Positions 3,687 to 27,208 of a stretch of DNA of 39,788 bases are shown here, one piece after another. This stretch comes from Candidatus Calescibacteriota bacterium (GTDB lineage: Bacteria; CAIJMQ01; JAADFP01): positions 1 through 39,788 of the forward strand of contig JAGGYA010000003.1 of the NCBI GenBank assembly GCA_021162785.1, written 5' to 3'. The first letter of the stretch is position 1. Every line of letters begins with the position of its first letter. The notes beneath the pieces were generated by a model. It was not told the DNA's origin. It saw only the letters and a program-made list of their open reading frames with translations, and made no database searches. Position numbers and translations under genes: made by a program.

Positions 3687-4641
3687 AATTTCCCTCCTCA
3701 CTCCAAATTTTTAGCATCAATTCGTATCTTTCCAGGGTTAGTCCTGTATAAATACAGTTGGAAGTGGAAAAAATGTATCCATAACCTGGCATTCCATGCT
3801 TAAGTGCATATCTTACCGATTCAATTACTTCTTCTTCTGTTCCGGTTTGAAGCAATGCACAGTTTACATTTCCTATAAGGCATACCTTATTTCCCACCCG
3901 TCGTTTTACCTCTGCAATATCTACTCCTGCTTGTGGGTCAAGAGAATGGAGAGCATGAGGATTGGCTTCCACGAGTTGGTCAAGGATAGGCATAATGTTT
4001 CCATCGGTGTGTTTTATAGTGTAAAAACCCATATCTCTATAGCCTCTTATCAATTTTGCCAAGTAAGGAGTTACAAACTCAGAAAACATGGAAGGACTTA
4101 AGAAAGGGCCTGTGTTAAAACAATAATCAGAACATAAGGCAAAACCATCTAAAAGACCTTTATATTTGCTTATTTTTTCTGCTCTTTCTAAAGCGTCCTG
4201 AACCCTTTTCTCTGCTTCTGCCTTTACCTTTTCTGGTTCATCTGCTAAACGATAGATAAAAGCTTCCATGTGTTTACCTTGAGGTATCCCAAAGGTGGCG
4301 TCACCATGGATCATGAGAAAATACTTATCCCCTGAAATTTCCCTTATTTTTTCCAGTTGACGAATAGTTTCTTCCAAACTTCCTGGGTTAGGATGCAGAA
4401 AAATAGCACTATGCTCAAATCTTTCTGCTATCATTATGTGTATCTCCGCAATATCTTTCCGGTGGAGTTCTTTTTCTTTCTCCGTCATTTGATCCCATTG
4501 GGAATAATTTCGATGCAAAGGGTGAACTTTTCCAAAAGCTTCCATTGTAAGGAAAAACACCAGTTCAAAATGGGGTACTCTCCCCTTAATAGGTTTTCTT
4601 TCCAATGCTAAGATAAATTTTTCTCTTGGAGTAATCTTCAT
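3679..4641 (-). CDS. Uroporphyrinogen decarboxylase (URO-D) family protein, second paralogue
   Basis: The 320-aa protein carries URO-D-family features: an ALERKP-type opening shortly after the start, FALCSDYCFNTGPFLSP in mid-protein, YTIKHTDGNI (the HTDG segment), HSLDPQAGVDIAEVKRR and VCLIGNVNCALLQTG. These are typical of the MtaA/CmuA-like branch rather than HemE. The substrate is unknown; corrinoid-linked methyl transfer is a family-level guess. The ATG at 4641 is preceded by a GGGGAAG-like ribosome site. It lies directly after the radical SAM gene with no gap and overlaps the next URO-D gene by 8 bases, so the three form one translational unit. Confidence 0.85.
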   Translation of the reverse strand: MKITPREKFILALERKPIKGRVPHFELVFFLTMEAFGKVHPLHRNYSQWDQMTEKEKELHRKDIAEIHIMIAERFEHSAIFLHPNPGSLEETIRQLEKIREISGDKYFLMIHGDATFGIPQGKHMEAFIYRLADEPEKVKAEAEKRVQDALERAEKISKYKGLLDGFALCSDYCFNTGPFLSPSMFSEFVTPYLAKLIRGYRDMGFYTIKHTDGNIMPILDQLVEANPHALHSLDPQAGVDIAEVKRRVGNKVCLIGNVNCALLQTGTEEEVIESVRYALKHGMPGYGYIFSTSNCIYTGLTLERYELMLKIWSEEGNYD

Positions 4642-5350: not shown

Positions 5351-7000
5351 TTATTTACCCTCCATCTTTTTAATTTTTCTCCACAAGGTAGTCCGAGAAA
5401 TACCCAGGAGTTTTGCTGCTTTACTTTTGTTCCCTCCAGTTTCTGCAAGTGTCTTCCTTATGATTTCCTCCTCCATTTTTCTCAATTCTCCAATGGGAAG
5501 AGGTTTTTTTCTGGTTAATTCTTCTGGCAAGTGTTCCCTATGAATAATTTCTCCCTTACAGTGGATAAATGCATGTTCAATCGCATTTTCAAGTTCTCTC
5601 ACATTCCCTGGCCACTCATAATCTAAAAGAAGATCCATTACTTGGGGAGAGACTTTTTTAATATTTTTTCCAAATTTTTGGTTAAACTTCTCTATGAAAA
5701 AATTCACCAGTAGAGGGATATCTTCTCTACGTTCCCGAAGGGGAGGAAGATGAATTACCATTACTTTAAGCCTGTAATAGAGGTCTTCTCGAAATCTGCC
5801 TTTTTCCACCAATTCTTTTAAATTCTGGTTGGTAGCAGAAATTATTCTCACATCAACTTTTATTGTTTCCGTGCCTCCCACCCGTTCAAATTCTTTGTCC
5901 TCTATAACTCTTAAAACCTTTGCTTGAAGTGCAGGAGAGAGTTCTGCAACTTCATCAAGAAAAACCGTCCCCCCTTCTGCTAATTCAAATTTCCCCAATT
6001 TCCTCGCGGTAGCCCCAGTGAATGCTCCTTTTTCATGGCCAAAGAGTTCACTTTCCAGAAGCTGTTCGGGGATAGCAGCACAAGAAATAGTGATAAAAGG
6101 TTTATTCTTTCTGGGGGAAAGAAAGTGTATGGTTTTTGCCACCAAGTTTTTTCCTGTGCCCGTTTCTCCTTCAATCAACACATGGGTATCCGTTTGACTT
6201 ACCAAATGTATAAGTTCATAAACTCTCTGCATTTGAGGAGACTTCCCTATAATACTTCCCAGACTGTATCTTTCTCTTATTTCTTCTTCCAGTTTTTTGA
6301 GTTCTGAAAGGTCTCTGAAAACTTCTACTCCACCTATGAACTCCCCTTCCTCGTCCACTAAAGGTGCAGTGCTGACGGAAATGGGGATTTTTTTGCCATT
6401 TTTGGTGGTAATCTCCGCTTCTTCTCCTTCAATTGTAAAAAGTCCAGATAAGCTCCTTTTAAGAGGACAGTTAGTTTGACATAAGGGAGTGTTAAAAACC
6501 TCATAACATTTTTTCCCCAAAATCTCTTCCCGCTGATATCCGGTTATTCTTTCTGCAGCCCGATTAAAAGAGGTAATTCTCCAATAAGGATCTATGGTGA
6601 AAACTCCTTCATTGATACTTTCTAATATTGCCTGCAATCGATTTTTTTCTCTCAGGAGTTCAGTAAATAAGTTGTGAAGAGAAGTGATTTCATGGATAAT
6701 CACCACAATTTTCAATGTGCTCTTATCCATAGAAATAGCTTGGAAAGAAAGAGATAGAAGAAAAGTTGTTCCATTTCTTTTTTTCCACTCTAAACTCCCT
6801 TCTTCAATTTTCTTCCTTCCCATGCTTAATTGTTTGATTTTCTCTTGTGCCTCTACTCCAAAAAGTTTGCCAATTTTTTTCCCTTTCCATTCATTTTGTT
6901 TAATTTGGAGAGTTTCCTCTACACCAGGGCTCACAAACAAGATTTTTCCTTCACTATCCGTTATAATTACCCCTGCTTTAGAAATGATAGGTTTAAACAT
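5351..7000 (-). CDS. Sigma-54-dependent transcriptional activator with two PAS domains
   Basis: The 549-aa regulator remodels sigma-54 RNA polymerase. Order: PAS 1 (about 5-110), PAS 2 (about 122-235), AAA+ domain (about 250-480) and a Fis-type helix-turn-helix (about 512-546). Walker A is GETGTGKN (278-285), the sigma-54 contact loop GAFTGA is at 325-330, Walker B VFLDE at 346-350, and the arginine-finger region contains FREDLYYRL. All catalytic elements are intact. PAS 2 contains clustered cysteines at C165, C174 and C178, which might bind a metal or a redox cofactor. It lies between a small secreted protein gene and the radical SAM gene. By position it probably regulates its own operon. 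I found no clear -24/-12 promoter by eye. Confidence 0.92.
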   Translation of the reverse strand: MFKPIISKAGVIITDSEGKILFVSPGVEETLQIKQNEWKGKKIGKLFGVEAQEKIKQLSMGRKKIEEGSLEWKKRNGTTFLLSLSFQAISMDKSTLKIVVIIHEITSLHNLFTELLREKNRLQAILESINEGVFTIDPYWRITSFNRAAERITGYQREEILGKKCYEVFNTPLCQTNCPLKRSLSGLFTIEGEEAEITTKNGKKIPISVSTAPLVDEEGEFIGGVEVFRDLSELKKLEEEIRERYSLGSIIGKSPQMQRVYELIHLVSQTDTHVLIEGETGTGKNLVAKTIHFLSPRKNKPFITISCAAIPEQLLESELFGHEKGAFTGATARKLGKFELAEGGTVFLDEVAELSPALQAKVLRVIEDKEFERVGGTETIKVDVRIISATNQNLKELVEKGRFREDLYYRLKVMVIHLPPLRERREDIPLLVNFFIEKFNQKFGKNIKKVSPQVMDLLLDYEWPGNVRELENAIEHAFIHCKGEIIHREHLPEELTRKKPLPIGELRKMEEEIIRKTLAETGGNKSKAAKLLGISRTTLWRKIKKMEGK

Positions 7001-7571: not shown

Positions 7572-8903
7572 ATGAATGGGCGTATTTTAATTGGGTCAGC
7601 AGATGAAAAAACTGTAAAATTCCTCTTACACTCACTTAAGAATTCCGGTTTTGAAGCAAAAGCAGTTAAAGAGGAGAAAGATATAAAACATAAATTGGAA
7701 AAAGAGAAATGGGACATTGTAATATTAGATGGAGAACTCAGTGAGGATGAGGGTATGTCCCTTCTGGCCTGGATAAAGGTCCATTATCCTGAAATTGAAG
7801 TAATTATGGTAACAGGTCAAGCCAGCACACCTGGAGCATTAGAGGCTTTAAGGAGGGGGGCTTATGATTATCTCCCTAAACCTGTCCAATGGGAAGAAAT
7901 TATTTTCAACATTACCAAAATAATGGATCATAAAGCATTATTGAAGGAGAATATTGAACTGCGGAGAGAACTGAAGAAAAAGTATGCTATAAGAAATCTG
8001 GTAGGTAAGAGTCCTCAGATGCTAAAGATTTTCCGTATTATTGATATTGTTTCCCGTAATGTAAGCAATGTTTTCATTACTGGAGAAAGTGGCACGGGAA
8101 AAGAATTAGTAGCAAAAGCTATACATTATTCTGGCCCTTTTGCAGATAAACCTTTTGTGGCAGTTGATTGCGCAAGTATGCCGGGGACTCTTATTGAATC
8201 TCAACTTTTTGGACATGTTAAAGGGGCTTTTACTGGAGCGGTGAAAGATAAAGAAGGGTTTTTCCAGGCTGCAGAAGGAGGAACCTTGTTTTTGGATCAA
8301 ATAACCGATTTAGATATAAATCTTCAGGCTAAACTTCTGCGAGTATTGCAAGAAAGAGAGGTTACTCCTGTGGGTGGCACTCGCCCTATCCCTGTGAATG
8401 TAAGAATAATTGCAGCTACCAATCGCGACCCTATGGAATGTATTGAAGAAGGGAAACTAAGGGAGGATCTTTTCTATCGATTGAATGTAGTGAATATCAC
8501 TTTACCACCTTTGAGAGAGAGGAAGGAGGATATTCCTTTACTTGTGAGTCATTTTATAGATCTTTACTCTCAAATTTATGGTGGAAGAATTGAGATTTCA
8601 CCGGAAGTAATGGAAATATTCCAGTCTTATTCTTGGCCGGGAAATGTAAGGGAGTTGGAGAATATAATTGAGGGATTCTTCGCCTTAGGTAAAAGAGGGA
8701 AAATAACCCGTGAGGATTTACCTTCTTATCTAAGAGAGAAGGGTGGGGAAGAAATAACTTTACTTCCCTGGGAAGAAATGGAAAAACGCATGATAGAAGA
8801 GGCTTTGAGAAGGGCGGGGGGTGTTAAAACAAGAGCAGCGGAACTTCTGGGAATTGATAGGAAACGGCTTTATCGAAAACTAAAAAAATTCTCCCTTTCC
8901 TGA
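7572..8903 (+). CDS. NtrC-family sigma-54-dependent response regulator
   Basis: This 443-aa protein has a receiver domain (about 4-118) with phospho-acceptor D53, acidic residues D11/E12, T81 and K103. The AAA+ domain (about 142-375) has Walker A GESGTGKE (171-178) and GAFTGA (218-223). A Fis-type helix-turn-helix ends the protein (about 405-440). Walker B reads LFLDQ, so the usual catalytic glutamate is glutamine (Q243, codon CAA at 8298-8300). That may slow ATP hydrolysis or stabilise the ATP-bound state. The paired histidine kinase is not adjacent. The gene heads a plus-strand run with recO, der, plsY and gpsA and has its own strong, apparently leaderless promoter. Confidence 0.92.
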   Translation: MNGRILIGSADEKTVKFLLHSLKNSGFEAKAVKEEKDIKHKLEKEKWDIVILDGELSEDEGMSLLAWIKVHYPEIEVIMVTGQASTPGALEALRRGAYDYLPKPVQWEEIIFNITKIMDHKALLKENIELRRELKKKYAIRNLVGKSPQMLKIFRIIDIVSRNVSNVFITGESGTGKELVAKAIHYSGPFADKPFVAVDCASMPGTLIESQLFGHVKGAFTGAVKDKEGFFQAAEGGTLFLDQITDLDINLQAKLLRVLQEREVTPVGGTRPIPVNVRIIAATNRDPMECIEEGKLREDLFYRLNVVNITLPPLRERKEDIPLLVSHFIDLYSQIYGGRIEISPEVMEIFQSYSWPGNVRELENIIEGFFALGKRGKITREDLPSYLREKGGEEITLLPWEEMEKRMIEEALRRAGGVKTRAAELLGIDRKRLYRKLKKFSLS

Positions 8904-8918
8904 TTTCTTATTGCAGTA

Positions 8919-9668
8919 ATGACTACTGAAGAAGGTATTGTAGTCAGGACTTATGATTTTAGAGAAACAAGTCTCATAATAGATTTAATAACCCCCATTT
9001 CAGGGAAAAAACGCATTTTAGCTAAGGGAGCAAGAGATCCTGTTCGAGGTTATACAGGAATATTCCTACCCACTAATAATGTGATAGTGAATTATTATTC
9101 AGGAAAAAACATCTCTCTTCTAAGTCATGCAGAGCTGAGAGATTTTTTTCCCCTCCTTCGAGGTGATTTTCTAAGATATGCCTTTGCTCTTTCTTTCTTA
9201 GAATTGGTTTATATACTCTTGGCACCTTTGGAAAGGAACTTTTATTCCTTTTCACTACAAACCATTAGATTTTTGGATGAGCAAAAAAGATTGGATTATC
9301 TACTTCTTTCCTCCTTTGTCTGGTTTAAATTGTTGAATTTCTCAGGTTTCTACCCCTATTTAGAAGGATGTCTTTGTTGCGGGAAAGAAAGCAAAATTTT
9401 CTTTTACTCAGTGGATAAAGGTGGACTTATATGTGAAGAGTGTAGAAAGAAAATTAACCAGCCTCATTTAATGGTTATAGATAGCGAAACTTTAGGAGGA
9501 TTAAGAGGGATGAAAAAACTGGATTTTTCCCTTTTATCTAAATGGAAAATAAATCTCATGAGCAAATTTAAGATAAAGGAGATTATGAAGGCTCACCTTC
9601 TTTATAGAATTGAAAAAAAACCTCCCTCCTTACAGTTTTGGGAAGCAGTGGAAAATTTACTATTATGA
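8919..9668 (+). CDS. recO: DNA repair protein RecO
   Basis: RecO anneals single strands and, with RecR, loads RecA on SSB-coated DNA. The 249-aa length is typical. The N-terminal OB fold begins EEGIVVRTYDFRETSLIIDL, and the central region carries a zinc-binding pair, CLCCG followed by CEEC, about 20 residues apart. The ATG at 8919 is 15 bases after the regulator gene and has no strong ribosome site. The stop codon overlaps the der start as ATGA. Its partner recR lies at 23495-24070 in the same window. Confidence 0.9.
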   Translation: MTTEEGIVVRTYDFRETSLIIDLITPISGKKRILAKGARDPVRGYTGIFLPTNNVIVNYYSGKNISLLSHAELRDFFPLLRGDFLRYAFALSFLELVYILLAPLERNFYSFSLQTIRFLDEQKRLDYLLLSSFVWFKLLNFSGFYPYLEGCLCCGKESKIFFYSVDKGGLICEECRKKINQPHLMVIDSETLGGLRGMKKLDFSLLSKWKINLMSKFKIKEIMKAHLLYRIEKKPPSLQFWEAVENLLL

Positions 9669-13026: not shown

Positions 13027-13302
13027 ATGGGTAGTTTAATAGGTGGGATAATAGTAGTGATTTTTAGCGTCATAGGATTGATATTTTGGTGGGGTCATTT
13101 CTTAGATGTGCTAATGGGTGCTTTACCCTTTTTAGGACTAATGGGAGGTGCAATAGCAATCTTTGGAGGGATAACATCTATTAAAGACAGAATCGCTGCC
13201 GAGAAAGAAGAGGAGAGATTAAAAGAAGAAATGGAAAAGGAAGAAGAGAAAGAGGAAGAGGAAAAGAAGGAAGGGGAGAAAAAGGGTGGAAAGAAAAAAT
13301 AG
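13027..13302 (+). CDS. Small membrane protein with a Glu/Lys-rich tail
   Basis: The 91-aa protein has two hydrophobic segments (about 4-23 and 29-49) rich in Gly and Ile. A strongly charged C-terminal tail (about 53-91) consists almost only of Glu, Lys and Gly and probably extends into the cytoplasm as a helix. No family is recognised. It has an excellent ribosome site (AAGGAGG, 13014-13020) and its own near-consensus promoter, so it should be highly expressed. Its 3' end overlaps the FecR gene by 17 bases, and an intrinsic terminator-like hairpin lies about 20 bases past its stop. It may therefore be expressed in excess of the downstream genes. Confidence 0.75.
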   Translation: MGSLIGGIIVVIFSVIGLIFWWGHFLDVLMGALPFLGLMGGAIAIFGGITSIKDRIAAEKEEERLKEEMEKEEEKEEEEKKEGEKKGGKKK

Positions 13303-14392
13303 AAGCTCCCCTTTTTCTAACTCAGGGAGCCTAAGATGGGCTCCCTTTTTAATTTTTTCTCTCTTTTCCTTTTTCATTCTCCCTCCTCTCCATTCACAGG
13401 AAAAAATAAATATAAAGGTTGTGGAAATCAAAGGCAATGTGGTAGTGAAATTTCCCCACAGTGAGGAATGGAAAAAATTGGAAAAAGGCACTTCCATCCC
13501 CCCTGGATCAGAAATTAAAACTGAAGAAGATTCTCAAGTTACCCTTGCCTATGGTGAGTTTGGTCTTACCACTTTAATTCCTAATTCTCTATTAATAATA
13601 AAAGATGGGAAACGGAAAAATGGAAAAAATTTAGTTTCTCTTTTCGCCAGAAAAGGGAAAATTTGGAGTGCAGTTAAAAAGAAATTTGTCTCAGAGACCG
13701 AATTCAATGTTGAAACTCCCAATGCTTTTACAGGTGTCCGTGGAACTACTTACTTTGTTAAATATGTCCCAGAACAGGAACTCACCAGAGTAGGCGTGTT
13801 AGAGGGTTTAGTAGGTGTTAAGAGTAAAGGGCCTCTTCCTGGATATACCGAAGTCCCTCAGATGATGGCTACTAATATTGTAAGTAATAAACCACCTACA
13901 TCTCTGGAAAAACTTCGTGAAGAAGAAATTAAAGAATGGAAAGAATGGAGAGAAAGAATGCAGGAATCAGTCCCTCTATGGGCTAAAGATATAGTGGGAG
14001 CAATGATGGAGCTGGATGAAGCTCGAAGAGTTGAAGCAGCCATGACTGTTAAGAAGATAGCTATGGCCAAAAGAGGGGAAAAGAAAGCACAGATGGATTT
14101 TAAAATCCTTAAGGAAGCTCTTCTTAAGTTTTACCAGGATACAGGTAGATTTCCTACTCGACAGGAAGGACTGGAGGCTTTGAAGAAAGATCCTGGAGTT
14201 AAAGGCTGGAAAGGCCCTTATGTAGATCCTTCCAGCAATCTTTTGGATCCTTATGGACACCCTTATCAATACCGCCTAAAGAAAACCCCCAAGGGAAAAT
14301 TATACCTCGAACTTAGATCTGTAGGTGTAGATGGAATAGCTGGAAGCCATGATGATCATGTGAAACTAATTTTCCCGTCCAAACATAGATGA
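13286..14392 (+). CDS. Secreted FecR-domain protein fused to a GspG-like (pseudopilin) C-terminal domain
   Basis: The 368-aa protein starts at GTG 13286; no later ATG, GTG or TTG precedes the signal peptide. A signal sequence (about 18-38) is followed by a FecR-type domain (about 44-180) with TPNAFTGVRGTTY at 144-156, and then a charged helical linker (about 205-265). The C-terminal part (about 270-360) matches the globular domain of type II secretion pseudopilin GspG: RFPTRQEGLEAL, WKGPYVD, DPYGHPYQYR and the calcium-loop pattern SVGVDGIAGSHDD. The hydrophobic prepilin N-terminus is absent, so it cannot assemble as a pilin. It probably acts in the periplasm as a sensor or scaffold. It overlaps the CHASE2 kinase gene as ATGA. 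A terminator-like hairpin lies within codons 14-22. Confidence 0.85.
   Translation: MERKNRSSPFSNSGSLRWAPFLIFSLFSFFILPPLHSQEKINIKVVEIKGNVVVKFPHSEEWKKLEKGTSIPPGSEIKTEEDSQVTLAYGEFGLTTLIPNSLLIIKDGKRKNGKNLVSLFARKGKIWSAVKKKFVSETEFNVETPNAFTGVRGTTYFVKYVPEQELTRVGVLEGLVGVKSKGPLPGYTEVPQMMATNIVSNKPPTSLEKLREEEIKEWKEWRERMQESVPLWAKDIVGAMMELDEARRVEAAMTVKKIAMAKRGEKKAQMDFKILKEALLKFYQDTGRFPTRQEGLEALKKDPGVKGWKGPYVDPSSNLLDPYGHPYQYRLKKTPKGKLYLELRSVGVDGIAGSHDDHVKLIFPSKHR
13325..13357 (+). terminator. Intrinsic terminator-like hairpin inside the start of the FecR gene
   Basis: GGGAGCC (13325-13331) pairs with GGCTCCC (13339-13345) around a seven-base loop, followed directly by TTTTTAATTTTTT. An upstream copy of GCTCCC (13305-13310) can instead pair with GGGAGC (13325-13330), which would disrupt the terminator. 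The arrangement resembles an attenuator placed after the stop codon of the small membrane-protein gene. Confidence 0.6.
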
Positions 14393-16284
14393 GGAAATTC
14401 CATACTCACTACCTATTCACAGGGGTAGTAAGTGGGGCTATTTCTGTTCTGATTATTCTTTTACTCTTTTTTAAGACTGGATTGAATTACTTTTCTAATA
14501 ACTATTTAGACCTCCTTTTTAATCTAAAACCTGAGGAGAAAACAAAAGAAATAGTAATAATAGAGATTGATGAAGAGAGTCTGAAACTCTTAGGAGAGAA
14601 ATGGCCACTCCCAAGAAAACATTATGGTGAACTTTTGCATATCCTTAAGGAAGCAGGAGTTAAAGCAGTGGGATTTGATATTTTATTTATTGACAAAAGC
14701 GACGAAAAAAACGATAAACTTTTTGCTTCATCCCTTTCCTTACTCCCAGTAGTTCTTGCAGGTAAACTGGAAAAAGAAGTTAAGAAAGAAGGGAATCTTG
14801 TATTAGAGAAAACCAAATTTGTTCTACCTTACACTCCTTTTTTAGAGCAAGCGGACTGGGGATTAGTAAATTTACCCATCGATAATGATGGAAAAATCAG
14901 GAGAGTCCAATTTTATAAAGAATTCAATAATCAATTGCTTCCTATTTTTGCTTTAGTGCTTTCTCAAAAATCGGGTGTAAAAATTTCTCCAGAAAAAGAA
15001 TCTCCTCTTATCAATTTTTCTGGGAGGAGAGGCACTTTTCCTTCCATTTCCTTAGTGCATGTATTAGGGAAGAAAATAGAATTAAGCAGTTTAAAGGATA
15101 AAATAATCCTTGTAGGAGCAACCTTACCTGAACTTCATGATTTCTTCCCCATACCTTTTAAAGGAGAATACCTGCCAGGTGTAGAAGTTCAGGCAAACAT
15201 ACTTCATAATCTTCTCCAGGGAAACTTTTTGAAAGAGTCGCCTTGGAAATTATCATTCATCCTTCTTATCTTATTTTCCATAATAGGCTGTATTTTGGCT
15301 CTTTTTGTAAGCACTCCCCTTGCCCTATTTTCTCTCTTGATTTTATCATTGGTTTTATTTTTCCCTTCTCTCTTTCTATTCTTAGAGAAAAATTATTTTT
15401 GGGATATCTCCCTTCCACTGCTTCCCTGTTATTTCACTTTTACCCTTACTTCACTTTCTTTAAAGATGAGAATTGTCACTTCACCCTGGATTGGAAAATA
15501 TCGGGTGGTGGAGGAGTTAGGGCGGGGAGGTATGGCTATAGTTTATAGAGCATGTAGACGGGGTAGAAAAGGTTTTGTGGCATTAAAGGTTCTGCAAAAG
15601 AACCTTGCAGAAGACCCTGCTTTTGTCAAAAGATTTCATCGAGAAGCAGAAGCTATGAAAACTCTACATCATCCCAATATCGTGTGTATTTTGGATGTGG
15701 GTAAAGATGAGGACAATCACTTTTTAGTAATGGAATTTTTAAAGGGTAAGGGTTTAGATGACTATTTACGCGAAAAAGGTATGCTTTCAGAAGAGGAATC
15801 TTTAAACATTGCCTTGCAGATTGCCCAGGGATTAAAACATGCACATGATAAAGGGATCATTCATCGTGATCTTAAGCCAGGGAATATCATCCTTACTCCT
15901 CAAGGGGCAAAAATTGTAGACTTTGGGTTGGCCAAAGACCTTTCCAGTGAAGCTACCAAACTTACCACTACAGGAACTATAATGGGTACACCGGAATATA
16001 TGGCCCCAGAACAATTCCGAGGAGAAGAAGCAGATCCACGAGCTGATATTTATGCATTAGGAGTGGTTCTTTATGAAATGCTTACAGGTATTCCACCTTT
16101 TACTGGGGAAAGTATTGGAGAAATAATGAATAAACATCTGTGGGAGCAACCAGATTTTTCGGGAATAAACAAGAAAATTGCGAAAGTTTTGAGTAAAATG
16201 TTAGCAAAGGGAAAGGAGGAAAGATACAAGAGTATGGAGGAGGTGATAGAGGAGTTAGAGAGGGTGAAAGGGGGGGATAGATGA
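14389..16284 (+). CDS. CHASE2-domain transmembrane serine/threonine protein kinase
   Basis: The 631-aa protein has an N-terminal membrane helix (about 10-30) and an extracytoplasmic CHASE2 sensor (about 35-275, with KEIVIIEIDEESL, GVKAVGFDILF and KDKIILVGAT). Three hydrophobic segments follow (about 286-358). The cytoplasmic Hanks-type kinase spans about 371-628 with GRGGMAIVY (379-387), VALK with Lys400, Glu419, HRDLKPGN (492-499), DFG (511-513) and APE (539-541). All catalytic residues are present. It would sense a periplasmic signal and phosphorylate Ser/Thr targets. FecR and CHASE2 proteins are often neighbours, and an FHA domain protein follows with a 4-base overlap, a likely phosphothreonine reader for this kinase. 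Confidence 0.95.
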   Translation: MRKFHTHYLFTGVVSGAISVLIILLLFFKTGLNYFSNNYLDLLFNLKPEEKTKEIVIIEIDEESLKLLGEKWPLPRKHYGELLHILKEAGVKAVGFDILFIDKSDEKNDKLFASSLSLLPVVLAGKLEKEVKKEGNLVLEKTKFVLPYTPFLEQADWGLVNLPIDNDGKIRRVQFYKEFNNQLLPIFALVLSQKSGVKISPEKESPLINFSGRRGTFPSISLVHVLGKKIELSSLKDKIILVGATLPELHDFFPIPFKGEYLPGVEVQANILHNLLQGNFLKESPWKLSFILLILFSIIGCILALFVSTPLALFSLLILSLVLFFPSLFLFLEKNYFWDISLPLLPCYFTFTLTSLSLKMRIVTSPWIGKYRVVEELGRGGMAIVYRACRRGRKGFVALKVLQKNLAEDPAFVKRFHREAEAMKTLHHPNIVCILDVGKDEDNHFLVMEFLKGKGLDDYLREKGMLSEEESLNIALQIAQGLKHAHDKGIIHRDLKPGNIILTPQGAKIVDFGLAKDLSSEATKLTTTGTIMGTPEYMAPEQFRGEEADPRADIYALGVVLYEMLTGIPPFTGESIGEIMNKHLWEQPDFSGINKKIAKVLSKMLAKGKEERYKSMEEVIEELERVKGGDR

Positions 16285-17816
16285 AACTCTTTATAAGATC
16301 TCCGGGTGGGGAATTAAAAGAGATAGAATTGGAAAGAAAGGGATATATAGTGGGAAGAGCCAAGGAGTGTGATATCGTAATTCCTGATCCAAGGGTTTCT
16401 TCCCGTCATTTTTTTCTTACACCCAGAGGGGCGGAATGGTGGGTAAGAGATTTAGGCTCTACTAATGGGACCTTTTTAAACGGAAGGAAAATTAGTGTTT
16501 CAAAGATTGCTGAGGGTGATACCCTACGGGTGGGACAAACGCTAATTACTGTGGGAAAGAAAGAATCAAAAGAAATTAATCGGTCACTTGCTCTTCAAAC
16601 CACACGAATGGAGGCTCTTTTAGCACCACCATCCAGTTTAGATGAAGCAATGAGATTACATCGACATTTAGAAATTCTCTGCAAAGTAAGTAAAGTACTC
16701 CATTCTGTTCAGACACTGGAGGAAGCTTTAGAAAAAACCTTAGATTTGATTTTCCAAGTCTTGAAAGCAGATCGAGGGGTGATTTTCTTAAAGGAAGATG
16801 AAGGGTTTAAAAAAGTGGCTGAAAGGAGGGGTGAAGATGATAAATCTCCCTTGAGAATTAGTTTTACCATAGTGGAGGAAGTTTTTAAAAAGGGAGAGTC
16901 AGTGATTACTTCAGACGCCATGCAGGATGAAAGATTCCGGAATAGAAAAAGTGTAATTTCTTCTCATATCCATTCAGCAATGTGTGTCCCTCTTGTGGGA
17001 AAGGAAAATATTCTGGGAGTGATTTATACAGATACTTTACTATCCAAAGGAGTTTTCAAAAGTGAAGATCTCGAACTACTCACTATCATAGGACACCAGG
17101 CAGGTATGGCTATTGAAAATGCACGATTATATGAGGAGAATCTTAAAAAGGAACGTCTGGCAGGTATAGGGATGGCAGTAGCTGGGATGGCACATTATGT
17201 AAAAAATATTATTCAGGGGATAAAAGGAGGCGAAACCTTAGTTGATCTGGGTATAACTCAAAAGAAACCTCTATTGCTGGAAAGAGGATGGGATGTGGTT
17301 AAAAAAGCTTTGGGGAAAGTTGAAGATTTAGTTCTCAATATGCTGACATATTCCAAAGAGAGGGAACCAATAAAAACCCCGGTTTTACTCAATGAATTAT
17401 TAGAAGAAGTAAGGCAACTTTTCAGTGAAAGAGCAAAAGAAAGGGGGATTATCCTTAAAGGAGTTTATGATCCTGAAGTTAAGACAATGATGGTAGATCC
17501 CATGGGCATTCATAGAGCACTAACAAATCTCATTATTAATGCAATAGATGCAATAGGAGAAAATGGCGAAATAGTTATTTCTTCCCAGAAAATTGAGGAG
17601 GGTGTTGAAATACGGGTGAAAGATAATGGAAGAGGGATTCCGCCTGAGATATTACCCCATCTTTTCACACCCTTCACCTCAGGTAAAGGAATGGAAGGGA
17701 CGGGTTTGGGGCTTGCTGTTACCAAGAAAATTGTGGATGAACATAAAGGGGAAATTAGGGTGGAATCGGAGGTGGGTAAAGGAACCACCTTTATTATCTC
17801 TTTACCCGCCCAGTGA
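16281..17816 (+). CDS. FHA-GAF sensor histidine kinase
   Basis: The 511-aa soluble protein has an FHA domain (about 5-92; GR at 25-26, SRH at 41-43, NGT at 62-64), which binds phosphothreonine. A GAF domain follows (about 130-285), then a phospho-acceptor helix with AGMAHYVKNIIQGIKGG (His305). The ATPase domain (about 365-509) has NLIINAIDA, DNGRG, a G2-like region and GTGLGL. The H-box differs from the common HExRNP form but resembles those of other FHA/GAF-linked kinases. It has no receiver partner in the operon. Its start overlaps the CHASE2 kinase as ATGA, so the Ser/Thr kinase and this kinase are made together. The natural inference is that Ser/Thr phosphorylation recruits or regulates it. 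Confidence 0.93.
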   Translation: MKLFIRSPGGELKEIELERKGYIVGRAKECDIVIPDPRVSSRHFFLTPRGAEWWVRDLGSTNGTFLNGRKISVSKIAEGDTLRVGQTLITVGKKESKEINRSLALQTTRMEALLAPPSSLDEAMRLHRHLEILCKVSKVLHSVQTLEEALEKTLDLIFQVLKADRGVIFLKEDEGFKKVAERRGEDDKSPLRISFTIVEEVFKKGESVITSDAMQDERFRNRKSVISSHIHSAMCVPLVGKENILGVIYTDTLLSKGVFKSEDLELLTIIGHQAGMAIENARLYEENLKKERLAGIGMAVAGMAHYVKNIIQGIKGGETLVDLGITQKKPLLLERGWDVVKKALGKVEDLVLNMLTYSKEREPIKTPVLLNELLEEVRQLFSERAKERGIILKGVYDPEVKTMMVDPMGIHRALTNLIINAIDAIGENGEIVISSQKIEEGVEIRVKDNGRGIPPEILPHLFTPFTSGKGMEGTGLGLAVTKKIVDEHKGEIRVESEVGKGTTFIISLPAQ

Positions 17817-18703
17817 AGATACTTCTCTTAAAAAGTGGCACGCTGGGGGATATTGTTTTACTCTTCCCCATACTCAATTCTTTAAAAGAAAAAGGTATTC
17901 AAACTACCTTAATGATAAGGAGAGAATTTATTCCTCTCATAAATACGCTTAATCTTGCTTCTCTGACCCTACCCTTAGATACTCCAGAGACTTTATTTCT
18001 CTATTTGAATCATCAATTTCCATCTTCTTGGGAGAGATTTTTCAGGTCTCACGATTGGGTAATCTCCTTTTCCTTAGGAAAAGCAGAAGAGAGACTTAGT
18101 GCCCTCTTGGGTGAGAAACTTGTGAAAATACCTTTGAAAGAACAAGAAAATACTCATGTTTTGGATTTTTATACCAGAACCTTTAATAAAATTTTAAATG
18201 GATTTTCACCCACTTTTCCAGATTTATGGGAAAAGGGAGATTACTTAATCATGCATCCGGGAAGTGGTAGCAAACACAAGAGATGGCCTAAGGAATATTT
18301 CCAAGAATTATATAAAATTTTATCCTTTCCAACAAAAATTCTTTTAGGAGAAGCAGAGAGGGAGGAAAAAAATGAGTGGGAAAAATTGGGAGAAGTGATT
18401 TTTCATCCTCCTTATCCCCAGCTTATTAACCTACTTGTAAACTCACGCCTATACATAGGGAACGATTCTGGTGTAACACATCTTTCTGCTTTCTTGGGTG
18501 TTCCTACTTTAGCAATTTTTGGTCCTACTTCCCCCTTTCACTGGGGACCAAAGGGTAAAAGGGTAAGAATTATTTACTCCAATTTCCCCTGTTCTCCCTG
18601 TAAGAATTATTGTGAAACCAGAGAATGTCTATTTTCTCTAAGGCCTGAAAGGATTGCTGAAGAAGTAAAGATATTATGGAAGGTTAAAGTTTATCTTTTT
18701 TAA
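17813..18703 (+). CDS. Glycosyltransferase family 9 (heptosyltransferase-like)
   Basis: This 296-aa protein matches ADP-heptose:LPS heptosyltransferases (GT9). It has the N-terminal SGTLGDIVLLFPIL, HPGSGSKHKRWPKEYF, and the C-terminal donor-binding segment YIGNDSGVTHLSAFLGVPTLAIFGPT followed by a cysteine-containing segment, CSPCKNYCETREC. It implies lipopolysaccharide-like core synthesis and thus an outer membrane. It starts at GTG 17813, overlapping the histidine kinase stop as GTGA, and so is coupled to the signalling operon. The length is slightly below the usual 320-350 aa but no domain is missing. It overlaps leuD tail-to-tail by 20 bases. Confidence 0.9.
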   Translation: MKILLLKSGTLGDIVLLFPILNSLKEKGIQTTLMIRREFIPLINTLNLASLTLPLDTPETLFLYLNHQFPSSWERFFRSHDWVISFSLGKAEERLSALLGEKLVKIPLKEQENTHVLDFYTRTFNKILNGFSPTFPDLWEKGDYLIMHPGSGSKHKRWPKEYFQELYKILSFPTKILLGEAEREEKNEWEKLGEVIFHPPYPQLINLLVNSRLYIGNDSGVTHLSAFLGVPTLAIFGPTSPFHWGPKGKRVRIIYSNFPCSPCKNYCETRECLFSLRPERIAEEVKILWKVKVYLF

Positions 18704-19187
18704 ATTTTTTCTTATACCATTCTATTAATCCGCCACATGAAATTATTTCTCGCAAAAATTCAGGGAAAGGCTCAACATAAACTGTAAAATTCTTTGTAAG
18801 ATTTACAACTACTCCCTTCTCCAAATCTATTTCCAGCCAATCTCCTTCCTCTGTTGAAGAAGAAATTTGTGGGGAGACGATAACGGGAAGCCCCACATTT
18901 ATTGAATTTCTGAGAAATATACGAGCAAAAGAAGCTGCAATCACTGCTGAAATTCCACATCCTTTAATAGCAAGTGGTGCATGCTCTCTGGAGGAACCGC
19001 ACCCAAAGTTTTCTCCAGCCACAATAATGTCTCCAAGGCTAACTTTCTTGTGGAATTCCGGAATTATACCTTCCAAGCAGTGATAAGAAAGTTCTTTTAA
19101 ATCGGTAGTTACGAGGTATCGTGCAGGAATTATAACATCAGTGTCAATATTATCTCCCAATTTATGAACTCGACCTTTTATAATCAT
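18684..19187 (-). CDS. leuD: 3-isopropylmalate dehydratase small subunit (LeuD/HacB type)
   Basis: The small swivelling subunit pairs with LeuC to isomerise 2- to 3-isopropylmalate in leucine synthesis; related archaeal-type forms act on homoaconitate or citramalate-derived substrates. The 167-aa protein is of the short type and contains [29 protein letters not shown], and [17 protein letters not shown], all diagnostic. The ATG at 19187 is preceded by GAGAGGA. It stands alone: leuC and other leu genes are absent from this window, so the large subunit must be encoded elsewhere. Its tail overlaps the GT9 gene by 20 bases. Confidence 0.93.
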
Positions 19188-23494: not shown

Positions 23495-24070
23495 ATGTAT
23501 CCTGAAAGTTTTCAGGAAGTTGTTGTTTTTCTCTCCAAATTACCGGGTTTAGGACCACGCAGTGGAGAAAGAATAGCTTTTCATTTATTTAAGTGCGGGG
23601 AAATAGAAAAATTTGCTACCCTTCTCCTTAAGTTAAAGGAAAGGGTTAAATTCTGCTCGCAGTGTCGAAATCTCACTGAAGAAGACCCCTGTAAAATCTG
23701 CCGAGATCCAGAGAGAGATTCTTCTTTACTTCTAATTGTGGAAGAGCCCTCTCAGTTAGAAGTAATTGAGAACTCCAAAGAATATAAAGGAAAGTATTTT
23801 GTTTTAGGTAGTAAAATTTCACCTTGGGAAGGGGAAAAACCCCAGGAACTCCCTTTGAAAGAGATGGAAGAGATTCTTAGAGAAAGAAAAGTGAAGGAAG
23901 TGATCTTAGGTGTGAATGAAGAATTAACCGCTCTTTTCCTGAAAGATTTTTTGAAAAAGTTTCCCCTAAAAATCACACGATTGGGAAGGGGTATACCTGT
24001 AGGTGCAAGGATTGAATATGTAGATGAAGCTACAATTAGAGAAGCTTTAAGAAATCGGAGTGAGCTATGA
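23495..24070 (+). CDS. recR: Recombination mediator RecR
   Basis: RecR works with RecO in RecA loading at gaps. The 191-aa protein has the N-terminal helix-hairpin-helix ([17 protein letters not shown]), the zinc finger [16 protein letters not shown], and the Toprim domain (LLIVEEP, then the later VILGVNEE). ATG 23495 is five bases after the ybaB stop; the frame extends upstream inside ybaB, but [18 protein letters not shown] is the standard N-terminus. It overlaps the V-ATPase A gene as ATGA. Confidence 0.95.
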
Positions 24071-25818
24071 AAGGGAAAATTGTCAGAGTCGCAGGTCCTT
24101 TAGTGATTGCCCGGGGTATTCCGGGTGCTAAGATGTATGATGTGGTAAGAGTGGGGAATGCAGGTCTTGTAGGAGAGATTATTGAATTAAAAGGGGATGA
24201 AGCCTCCATTCAAGTCTATGAAAATACATCTGGAATTGGCCCGGGTGAGCCTGTAATCACCACTGGCGCACCTCTCAGTGTGGAATTAGGCCCTGGACTC
24301 CTTACTTCAATATTTGATGGTATTCAGAGACCACTGGATGTAATGAGAGAAAAAGTAGGAGATTTTATAACTCGGGGATTGGATATACCCCCTTTGTCTC
24401 GGGAGAAAAAATGGGATTTTGAACCTGCAGTTAAAGAGGGCGAGGAAATAGGAGAAGGAGATATTTTAGGAGAGGTTCAGGAGACTAAATATATAAGACA
24501 CAGGATACTCGTCCCCCCTGGAATTAAAGGGAAAGTCAGAAAAATAAGAGGTGGTTCCTTCACCATTGAGGAAGAAATTGCAGTCATAAAAACTGATGAT
24601 GGGAAAGAAACATCTCTCACTATGCTTCAAAAATGGCCGGTTAGGAGACCCCGACCTTTTAAGAAGAAACTTCCTCCCGAAAAAATACTTATCACAGGGC
24701 AAAGGGTAATAGATGCTTTCTTCCCCCTTGCAAAAGGGGGAACAGCCTGTGTTCCAGGGCCGTTTGGTTCAGGGAAAACTGTATTACAACATCAATTGGC
24801 TAAATGGAGCGATGCTCACATCATCATCTACATAGGATGTGGCGAGAGGGGAAATGAAATGGCTTCAGTGCTTCTTGAATTTCCTGAATTGGAGGATCCC
24901 TACACAGGAGAACCTCTTATAAATAGGACAGTTCTTATTGCCAATACATCTAATATGCCCGTAGCTGCTCGAGAAGCTTCTATATATACCGGGGTGACAA
25001 TTGCAGAGTATTTCAGAGACATGGGTTATAATGTTGCGGTGATGGCTGATTCTACTTCCCGCTGGGCAGAAGCATTAAGAGAAATATCCGGTAGGCTGGA
25101 AGAAATGCCTGGAGAGGAAGGATATCCAGCCTATCTTCCTCAAAGAGTGGCTGAATTTTATGAAAGAGCAGGTAGAGTAATATGCATAGGGAAAGATGGT
25201 AGGGAAGGGACACTATCAATAATTGGTGCTGTCTCTCCTCCAGGTGGTGATCTTTCAGATCCTGTAGTCCAGGCAACGCTGAAAGTGGTGAAAGTTTTTT
25301 GGTCCTTGGAGGATTGGTTAGCTTACCGGAGACATTTTCCTGCAATTAATTGGCTTACCAGTTATTCCTTATATGTGGAGAATCTGGAAAGTTATTTGAA
25401 GAAAGAAATAGCAGAAGACTGGCTAAACTTGAGGAAAGAAGCACTAAAAATCCTTGAGAAAGAAGCAGATCTTCAAGAAATTGTGAGGTTAGTAGGGGTA
25501 GAGAGTCTATCTCCTAAGGATCGCCTACTTTTAGAGACTGCTCGGTCAATTAGAGAAGATTTCTTGCACCAAAATGCTTTTGACCCTGTGGATACCTATT
25601 CGCCTTTGAAGAAACAGTATCTTATGCTGAAAATTGTTTTAGAATTCCATCATCAACTCATTAAATTACTGGAAGAAGGGAAAGATATTCAAGATTTACT
25701 TTCTCACCCTCTTAGAGAGGAGATTGCCAGGATGAGATATGTAAAAAATGAAGATGAGAAGACTTTATCTGACCTTTTGGAAAGAGTAAGAAAAATAGGA
25801 GAAGTAGCCCATGTTTAA
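24067..25818 (+). CDS. ntpA: V/A-type ATP synthase/ATPase catalytic subunit A
   Basis: This is the catalytic nucleotide-binding subunit of the V1/A1 head. The 583-aa length is standard. The N-terminal [17 protein letters not shown] is followed by the non-homologous insert typical of A subunits, the P-loop GPFGSGKT (about 231-238), [12 protein letters not shown] and the [29 protein letters not shown] block broken over the catalytic Glu and Arg. It is complete. It overlaps recR by four bases and subunit B by eight. The usual partner genes (D, E, C, F, I, K) are not in this window. Confidence 0.96.
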
Positions 25819-27208
25819 AGAATATCTTACGGTAAGGGAAATCTCTGGTCCATTGGTATTGGTGGAAGAAGTAGAGGGTGTGAAATATGATGAACTGATA
25901 GAAATAACTGCACCGGATGGTAGTTTGAGAAGAGGAAGGGTTCTGGAGGTTCATGAGGATAAAGCACTGGTGCAGTTGTTTGAAGGAGCAACGGGTATTG
26001 ATATCTACCGCACAAGAGTTCGCTTCTTAGGGAGGGGAATTGAAATTGGTTTGAGCTTGGATATGCTGGGAAGAGTTTTTGATGGAATGGGAAGGGTGAG
26101 GGATGATGGCCCTCCTATAATTCCAGAAATAACCTTGGATATCAATGGAAGTCCGATAAATCCTTATTCACGGGATTATCCCTCTGAGTTTATTCAAACA
26201 GGTATCTCTGCAATTGATGGTTTAAATACATTGGTTAGAGGACAGAAACTCCCTATCTTTTCTGGCTCAGGACTTCCCCATGCCCGTGTAGCTGCTCAGA
26301 TTGTAAGACAGGCAAAGGTTCTGGGTAAAGAAGAGAAATTTGCTGTAGTTTTTGCTGGTATGGGGATAACCTTTGAAGAAGCTGACTTTTTTCTTAAAAG
26401 TTTTGAGAAAGGAGTGGCTCTTTCCCGCACGGTAGTTTTTCTCAATCTTGCTGATGACCCTTCTATTGAAAGAATAGCTACTCCTCGGGTTGCTTTGACC
26501 TGTGCTGAATATTTAGCTTTTTACAAGGATATGCATGTCCTGGTTATTCTTCTGGATATGACCAATTACTGTGAAGCCCTAAGGGAAATTTCAGCTGCAA
26601 GGAAAGAAGTTCCAGGGAGACGGGGGTATCCAGGATACATGTATACAGACTTAGCCAGTATTTATGAAAGAGCAGGAAGGATAAAAGGGAAAAAAGGTTC
26701 AATAACTCAAATGCCAATTCTTACTATGCCTGAAGACGACAAAACACATCCCATTCCTGACCTTACAGGATACATTACTGAGGGACAGATAATCCTTTCT
26801 CGTTCCCTCCATCGAAAGGGTATTTACCCTCCTATCGATGTATTGCCTTCCCTTTCCCGTTTAAAAGACAGAGGAATTGGAAAAGGGAAGACAAGAGAAG
26901 ACCATGCGGATCTTTTCAATCAGCTTTTCTCTGCCTATGCCCATGGAAAAGAGGTTCAGGAATTAGCAGTAATCCTGGGAGAGGAATCCTTAAGCGAGTT
27001 AGACCGTATTTACTACAAATTCGCTGAGATTTTTGAGGAAGTCTATGTAAATCAAGGTGAATATGAAGAAAGAAGTATTGAAGAAACTTTAGATCTTGGC
27101 TGGAAACTCTTAACACTCTTACCTCAGTCTGAGCTTAAAAGGGTGAGACCAGAATTTATAGAAAAATACCTACCCAAGGAGAAATTTACTCCAGAAAGAG
27201 GTGGGTAA
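25811..27208 (+). CDS. ntpB: V/A-type ATP synthase/ATPase subunit B
   Basis: This is the non-catalytic nucleotide-binding subunit that alternates with A in the hexameric head. The 465-aa protein starts with [20 protein letters not shown] and has [14 protein letters not shown] in place of a P-loop, then [33 protein letters not shown] split across the conserved helix, and [18 protein letters not shown]. These identify B rather than A. Subunit D normally follows B, but here an acyl-CoA-synthetase-like gene starts nine bases later. Confidence 0.96.

Follow-up and report, generated by a model that had tools for sequence, protein, structure and literature searches.

A candidate envelope-sensing cassette pairing a CHASE2 receptor Ser/Thr kinase with an FHA-bearing histidine kinase in a Candidatus Calescibacteriota bacterium

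Related systems and make-up of the locus

Several described systems share elements with the gene block examined here, which lies in a 39,788-nucleotide stretch of DNA (the window; contig JAGGYA010000003.1) from a Candidatus Calescibacteriota draft genome and encodes a CHASE2 receptor Ser/Thr kinase (STK; protein P0003) followed by a histidine kinase with an FHA domain (P0004). In the BiofilmReg operon of Burkholderia, a secreted FecR-domain protein is likewise encoded beside a membrane kinase with CHASE2, a domain that has no known ligand (PMC5192318). In BiofilmReg, however, CHASE2 is joined directly to a PAS histidine kinase, a response regulator is linked and FecR carries a LysM fusion, whereas here CHASE2 is fused to a STK, the histidine kinase is a separate, FHA-bearing protein and the fusion partner of FecR is a GspG head. 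CHASE2 is also N-terminal to the kinase in the cbSTKII enzymes of cyanobacteria (PMC2176072, PMC1262709), for which the accessible sections of these reports describe neither a FecR nor an FHA-histidine-kinase partner. The HstK-type kinases (cbSTKIII), also cyanobacterial, join a STK with a GAF histidine kinase, but as a single STK-GAF-HisKA polypeptide without FHA (PMC2176072); here, two proteins would be joined through a presumed phosphothreonine-FHA contact.

In Myxococcus (EspA/EspB/PktA5), a complex that includes Ser/Thr kinases is believed to be an interaction partner of a histidine kinase (PMC4320627). EspA, a hybrid kinase, carries a receiver, and the STKs of this system are not described as CHASE2 receptors sharing an operon with it. 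An FHA domain is also part of EspA. Mycobacterial PknB, which carries a TxT motif in its activation loop, acts on or docks with the FHA proteins FhaA, GarA and Rv1747, none of which is known to be a histidine kinase, unlike P0004. A literature search that left most subscription journals outside its reach returned no report joining CHASE2, FHA, FecR and histidine kinase. Operons with FecR and CHASE2 are already known, as are CHASE2-STKs; the pairing of a STK with an FHA histidine kinase, with readers matched to writers, appears to be new. The wiring of bacterial Ser/Thr kinases into two-component systems has mostly been described case by case so far.

The block consists of five open reading frames (ORFs) on the + strand, head to tail from 13027 to 18703, with overlaps of 4-17 nt between neighbours (Table 1). 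All the genes that the initial annotation had named are where it placed them, as judged from ORFs and Pfam: the small membrane protein P0001, a FecR protein, the CHASE2-STK, the FHA-GAF histidine kinase and a glycosyltransferase of family 9 (GT9). Read from sequence, the block probably specifies an envelope-sensing cassette in which the CHASE2 receptor STK acts as writer and the soluble FHA histidine kinase as phosphothreonine reader.

Table 1. Features of the gene block; coordinates are those of the window unless a locus is named, and all Pfam scores exceed the gathering thresholds.
Feature	Position	Strand	Basis
Near-consensus sigma-70 promoter TTGACA-17-TATACT, between tRNA-Pro and P0001	12975..13003	+	11/12 matches
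P0001, 91 aa, two transmembrane helices and Lys/Glu-rich tail, weakly MamI-like; probably no cassette component	13027..13302	+	
P0002, 368 aa, secreted: FecR domain, long helix, GspG-like (T2SSG) head	13286..14392	+	Pfam (FecR 34.5 bits, T2SSG 64.1 bits) and AlphaFold2 (AF2) model
Terminator-like hairpin followed by T-rich tract, within 5' end of FecR ORF	13324..13346	+	-17.2 kcal/mol, z -3.7
Hairpin and T tract, window	13324..13360		
Hairpin and T tract, L097	~9611..9650		
Hairpin and T tract, L098	~4075..4116	-	
P0003, 631 aa, CHASE2 receptor Ser/Thr kinase	14389..16284	+	Pfam
CHASE2 domain	14449..15288	+	~170 bits, cut-off 26.3
Ser/Thr kinase domain, activation loop TKLTTTGTIMGTPEYMAPE	15499..16242	+	Pkinase 206 bits
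P0004, 511 aa, FHA-GAF-DHp-HATPase histidine kinase (DHp, dimerization and histidine phosphotransfer), without transmembrane helix or receiver	16281..17816	+	
FHA domain, GR/SxxH/NG intact	16344..16535	+	Pfam, 71.6 bits
GAF domain	16716..17114	+	Pfam, 66.9 bits
His305 codon, presumed phospho-acceptor (MAHYVKN)	17193..17195	+	His invariant, next residue variable (alignment)
HATPase_c domain, N/G1/F/G2 boxes present	17496..17810	+	Pfam, 104 bits
P0005, GT9 (heptosyltransferase-like) glycosyltransferase, fifth gene of conserved block	17813..18703	+	Pfam (Glyco_transf_9 77.7 bits) and conserved order

Conservation of the block and CHASE2 neighbourhoods

The source genome is a 949-kb draft, 64% complete, and six relatives in its class were available for comparison. 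Absence of the gene order from other genomes had been named initially as grounds for abandoning the proposal. All five genes are nonetheless found in the same order in G002 (contig C43, locus L097), which represents another genus of the same family, and in G001, of the same genus as G002, where the block is split over two contigs within the histidine kinase gene, C91 carrying residues 1-322 and C119 residues 293-509. Compared with the window, the G001 and G002 proteins show 71% identity over the first 58 residues of P0001 and about 60% for the FecR-T2SSG protein; the values are 52-53% for the CHASE2-STK, 65-68% for P0004 and 39-42% for the GT9 protein. The upstream flanks differ (tRNA-Pro and MerR genes in the window versus genes for UPF0047 and radical SAM proteins in G002), and downstream of GT9 the flanks have no gene in common. 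Because the order is kept across genera while both flanks differ, we regard the five-gene block as a selected unit.

The survey of CHASE2 neighbourhoods covered up to 17 kb around some 90 CHASE2 genes across a wide range of bacterial genomes, in which ORFs were called and domains were scored with profiles built from those of the window, key cases being checked with Pfam; cyanobacterial CHASE2-STK neighbourhoods lay outside it. Because only the top three candidates in each genome were scored in the wide alignment searches, the counts are lower bounds. Ten of 94 CHASE2 proteins carry a STK domain, and most of the others a cyclase. For 7 of the 10 CHASE2-STKs there is an FHA gene no more than three genes away, as against none of the 84 other CHASE2 proteins (Fisher p = 1.2e-8, relatedness ignored); these seven loci amount to about four lineages (the window's family with three genomes, G081, G176 with G129, and G030), and it is this lineage count, not the p-value, that is the honest number for the association. 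Even at relaxed thresholds, no FHA domain was detected among 860 ORFs at 83 non-STK CHASE2 loci. The three CHASE2-STKs without an FHA neighbour come from one genus, and on a quick version of the CHASE2 tree STK output requires four changes, at least two of them forced.

Some of these loci resemble the block in the reader but differ in other components. At L135 (2962-7839, Pfam-checked), a CHASE2-STK, a PP2C phosphatase and FHA proteins form a single run of writer, eraser and reader, and the same order recurs in another genome at L136 (3189-7181), where Pfam confirms the FHA protein. In G030 (L203:3270-10441), Pfam confirms a FecR(VWA) protein, a CHASE2-cyclase-STK and an FHA-GAF-cyclase, that is, the same reader with a different output. 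The FHA reader of L203 would drive a cyclase, not a histidine kinase; the cyclase domain fused to CHASE2 at this locus has a low score (24.9 bits) and is possibly degenerate.

Histidine kinases of the P0004 family are also encoded beside CHASE2-cyclases in three lineages, represented by G005 (L107), G130 (L116) and G267 (L117). These cassettes share with the block the histidine-kinase family, the CHASE2 input and, at L116 and L117, the fusion of FecR with the GspG (T2SSG) head, L107 being without FecR; they differ from it in having a cyclase in place of the STK and a histidine kinase that in all three lacks FHA. The tree places P0004 with the FHA-GAF histidine kinase of G223 (97/98), whereas the histidine kinases of the sister family in its own class group with the cyclase-linked, FHA-less ones (100/99), so that reader type follows receptor output and not taxonomy. 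In G223 and G278, moreover, the gene for the FHA-GAF histidine kinase adjoins another STK gene or lies one gene from it. The matching of FHA readers to STK neighbours is a correlation. A NKFD-like motif is present in the GAF domain of the FHA-less histidine kinases and absent from the FHA-bearing ones; such motifs are common in bacterial GAF domains.

These comparisons hint at a modular class of CHASE2 cassettes, which we put forward tentatively, in which a shared histidine-kinase family would supply an FHA reader for STK output and a GAF-only reader for cyclase output. If true, the class would link Ser/Thr phosphorylation directly to the His-Asp phosphorelay through a genetically encoded connection. 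The conserved neighbour pair of CHASE2-STK and FHA histidine kinase and the related FHA-less cyclase versions form a natural control, and the wiring can be tested in vitro with two proteins.

The two kinases and the weighing of explanations

P0003 has the architecture of a CHASE2 receptor STK, with CHASE2 N-terminal to transmembrane helices and a Hanks-type kinase, and all of its catalytic motifs are intact (GRGGMAIVY, VALK, HRDLKPGN, DFG and APE), in agreement with its initial description as a membrane CHASE2 kinase with intact catalytic residues. The T-x-T-G-T-[I/M] stretch of its activation loop, kept in the window genome, G001 and G002, presumably corresponds to the docking threonines of PknB and has a hydrophobic residue in the +3 position. 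In P0004, the phosphothreonine-motif residues of FHA (G25, R26, S40, H43, N62 and G63) are invariant in 10 homologues, and the nearest solved FHA domains are those of Rv1747, Rv0020c/FhaA (TB39.8) and GarA, which are partners of mycobacterial STKs.

The description of P0004 as an FHA-GAF histidine kinase holds for its FHA, GAF and HATPase_c domains and less well for the region between the last two. Pfam HisKA (PF00512) gives no match in P0004, and its H-box, HYVKN, has Tyr in place of the usual acid after His and thus departs from HisKA. His305 and Lys308-Asn309 are invariant in the 10 homologues aligned, and the AF2 model (mean predicted local distance difference test score, pLDDT, 80) has a helical hairpin before the ATPase domain. 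A HisKA match is obtained for cyclase-linked relatives with HD and for one relative with HN. P0004 belongs to a family of histidine kinases whose H-box reads HxxKN, in many cases with a GG pair behind it, and in which Y, N, H, C, D or F takes the place of a conserved acid after His.

The proposal that Ser/Thr phosphorylation feeds a histidine kinase through FHA has gained support of a genomic kind, from the association of FHA genes with CHASE2-STKs and from the FHA-less histidine kinases beside CHASE2-cyclases. Under this proposal, P0002 may act at the envelope, sensing a ligand or serving the CHASE2 domain as a co-receptor, as its conserved adjacency suggests. CHASE2 would activate the cytoplasmic STK, which may then phosphorylate threonines of its own activation loop, as would fit the intact catalytic residues and the conserved T-x-T-G-T-[I/M]. 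The FHA domain of P0004 could dock on such a phosphothreonine, on P0003 itself or on a shared partner, and docking would recruit the histidine kinase and adjust its His-Asp output, with GAF as a putative second input. The output would be carried by an unlinked response regulator.

A number of observations weigh against this proposal and bear on other explanations. The two kinases might share an operon and an envelope regulon without forming one pathway, the STK acting on its own targets while FHA reads the phosphothreonine of another STK or mediates dimerization or localization. The source genome encodes three STK and three FHA genes, two of each apart from this pair, and other STK-FHA pairings are therefore possible; FHA may also read other targets, because FHA and STK genes cluster in bacteria generally (PMC1262709). 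At 8 of 13 FHA-GAF histidine kinase loci in other lineages no STK gene lies close by, and the CHASE2-STKs of family f80 have no FHA neighbour. The junction between STK and histidine kinase genes also varies, from an overlap in the window to a gap of about 200 bp in G001 and G002; hence the coupling initially claimed for the four genes and GT9 is borne out by the overlaps in the window, but at this junction it is not kept in relatives. We nevertheless consider separate pathways unlikely, given that in the survey FHA genes occur near CHASE2-STKs and never near other CHASE2 types, that the homologues of P0004 beside cyclase-type CHASE2 proteins lack FHA, and that the five genes stay together while their flanks change.

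Doubt also attaches to the activity of P0004, which might be a phosphothreonine- and ligand-regulated ATPase or scaffold instead of an active histidine kinase. His305 lacks the usual following acid (HYVKN instead of HE or HD), so autophosphorylation is not assured; the HisKA profile does not detect the protein, the residue after His varies in the family, and no response regulator is linked to P0004 in the block. This explanation appears improbable in view of the invariant His305 and Lys308-Asn309, the intact N, G1, F and G2 boxes, the HD members and one HN member that match HisKA and the helical hairpin modelled ahead of the ATPase. LytS-type kinases, too, lack an acid after His. No PP2C_2 phosphatase was found in the class of the source genome, SpoIIE-type phosphatases not having been searched, and this likewise counts against a STK writer read by P0004. 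Finally, the full order is found in three genomes of a single family, two of them of one genus and all drafts, as might be expected if common signalling domains lay together by chance or through the limits of the assemblies and did not function jointly. That possibility, to which we attach hardly any weight, is largely refuted by order conservation and by the neighbourhood survey: the block is conserved across genera at moderate identity (39-71%) with different flanks, and FecR-T2SSG with CHASE2 and a GAF histidine kinase or FHA recurs in unrelated families.

Accessory genes and other features of the window

The four-gene unit of the initial annotation stands for FecR, CHASE2-STK and the FHA histidine kinase but not for P0001. 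In the window, G002 and G001 alike, TTGACA-17-TATACT and a strong Shine-Dalgarno sequence precede P0001, and a terminator-like hairpin lies directly 3' of it, with z-scores from -3.7 to -5.0 and with stems that differ in sequence (GGGAGCC in the window versus GGGGGC in G001 and G002). Of 193 genomes surveyed, 22 have a homologue of P0001, and those of G081, G130, G004 and G005 are on contigs other than that of the CHASE2 gene; a separate listing of P0001 homologues was read from its + strand rows. For these reasons, we place P0001 outside the core of the pathway. It is most plausibly a small membrane protein with expression of its own, which the terminator sets apart and whose promoter would also drive the cassette by read-through. 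Together with the homologues at L215, L217, L219 and L223, it belongs to widespread small two-helix membrane proteins that are mostly unlinked to CHASE2. As a magnetosome protein MamI it was rejected, its NCBIfam score of 33.2 bits falling below the cut-off of 80. In all three genomes, the hairpin and T tract behind P0001 also encode the Phe-rich signal peptide of the FecR protein.

The FecR fold of P0002 is recognized by both Pfam and AF2, and the model matches FecR-type anti-sigma domains (4m0n/6ovk) and GspG (3g20). Its N-terminus resembles a signal peptide, unlike the cytoplasmic anti-sigma domain of FecR cell-surface signalling, and neither a FecI-type sigma factor gene nor a TonB receptor gene was seen beside it. 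The protein was first described as having FecR and pseudopilin domains; FecR and secretion are upheld, whereas what was called pseudopilin is only a GspG head that follows a long charged helix, the prepilin cleavage site and hydrophobic N-helix of GspG being absent. An envelope output through GT9, also proposed initially, was not upheld, the connection being gene linkage in one family; P0005 would be co-transcribed and probably has a downstream envelope function, in this family only.

The source genome encodes seven receiver-domain proteins, the nearest of them 7.4 kb upstream of the P0004 gene. A scan of genome contigs with P0004 returned distant kinases only. Two sigma-54 activators are encoded nearby with no histidine kinase beside them, one of PAS type (5351-7000, - strand) and one of receiver type (7572-8903, + strand). 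The latter, NtrC-like, is not supported as the cognate response regulator, its 74%-identity orthologues lying on other contigs in G001 and G002; it is a possible partner of the orphan P0004.

In other genomes, CHASE2 is fused to sigma-54 activator domains and a Fis helix-turn-helix (L184:4587-7238 and L186:1484-4024, both Pfam-checked, and L194), and these fusions are apparently membrane-anchored transcription activators. A LeuD-like gene lies near the histidine-kinase locus in the window (18684-19187), and a LeuC-like gene of the aconitase family at the sister-family locus (L107:2885-4138). Elsewhere in the window, genes for V/A-type ATPase subunits A and B (24067-27208) immediately follow a recR-like gene. 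The second CHASE2 gene of the source genome (G000:C25, L108:5407-7602) encodes a CHASE2-HD-GYP protein and adjoins a signal peptidase gene.

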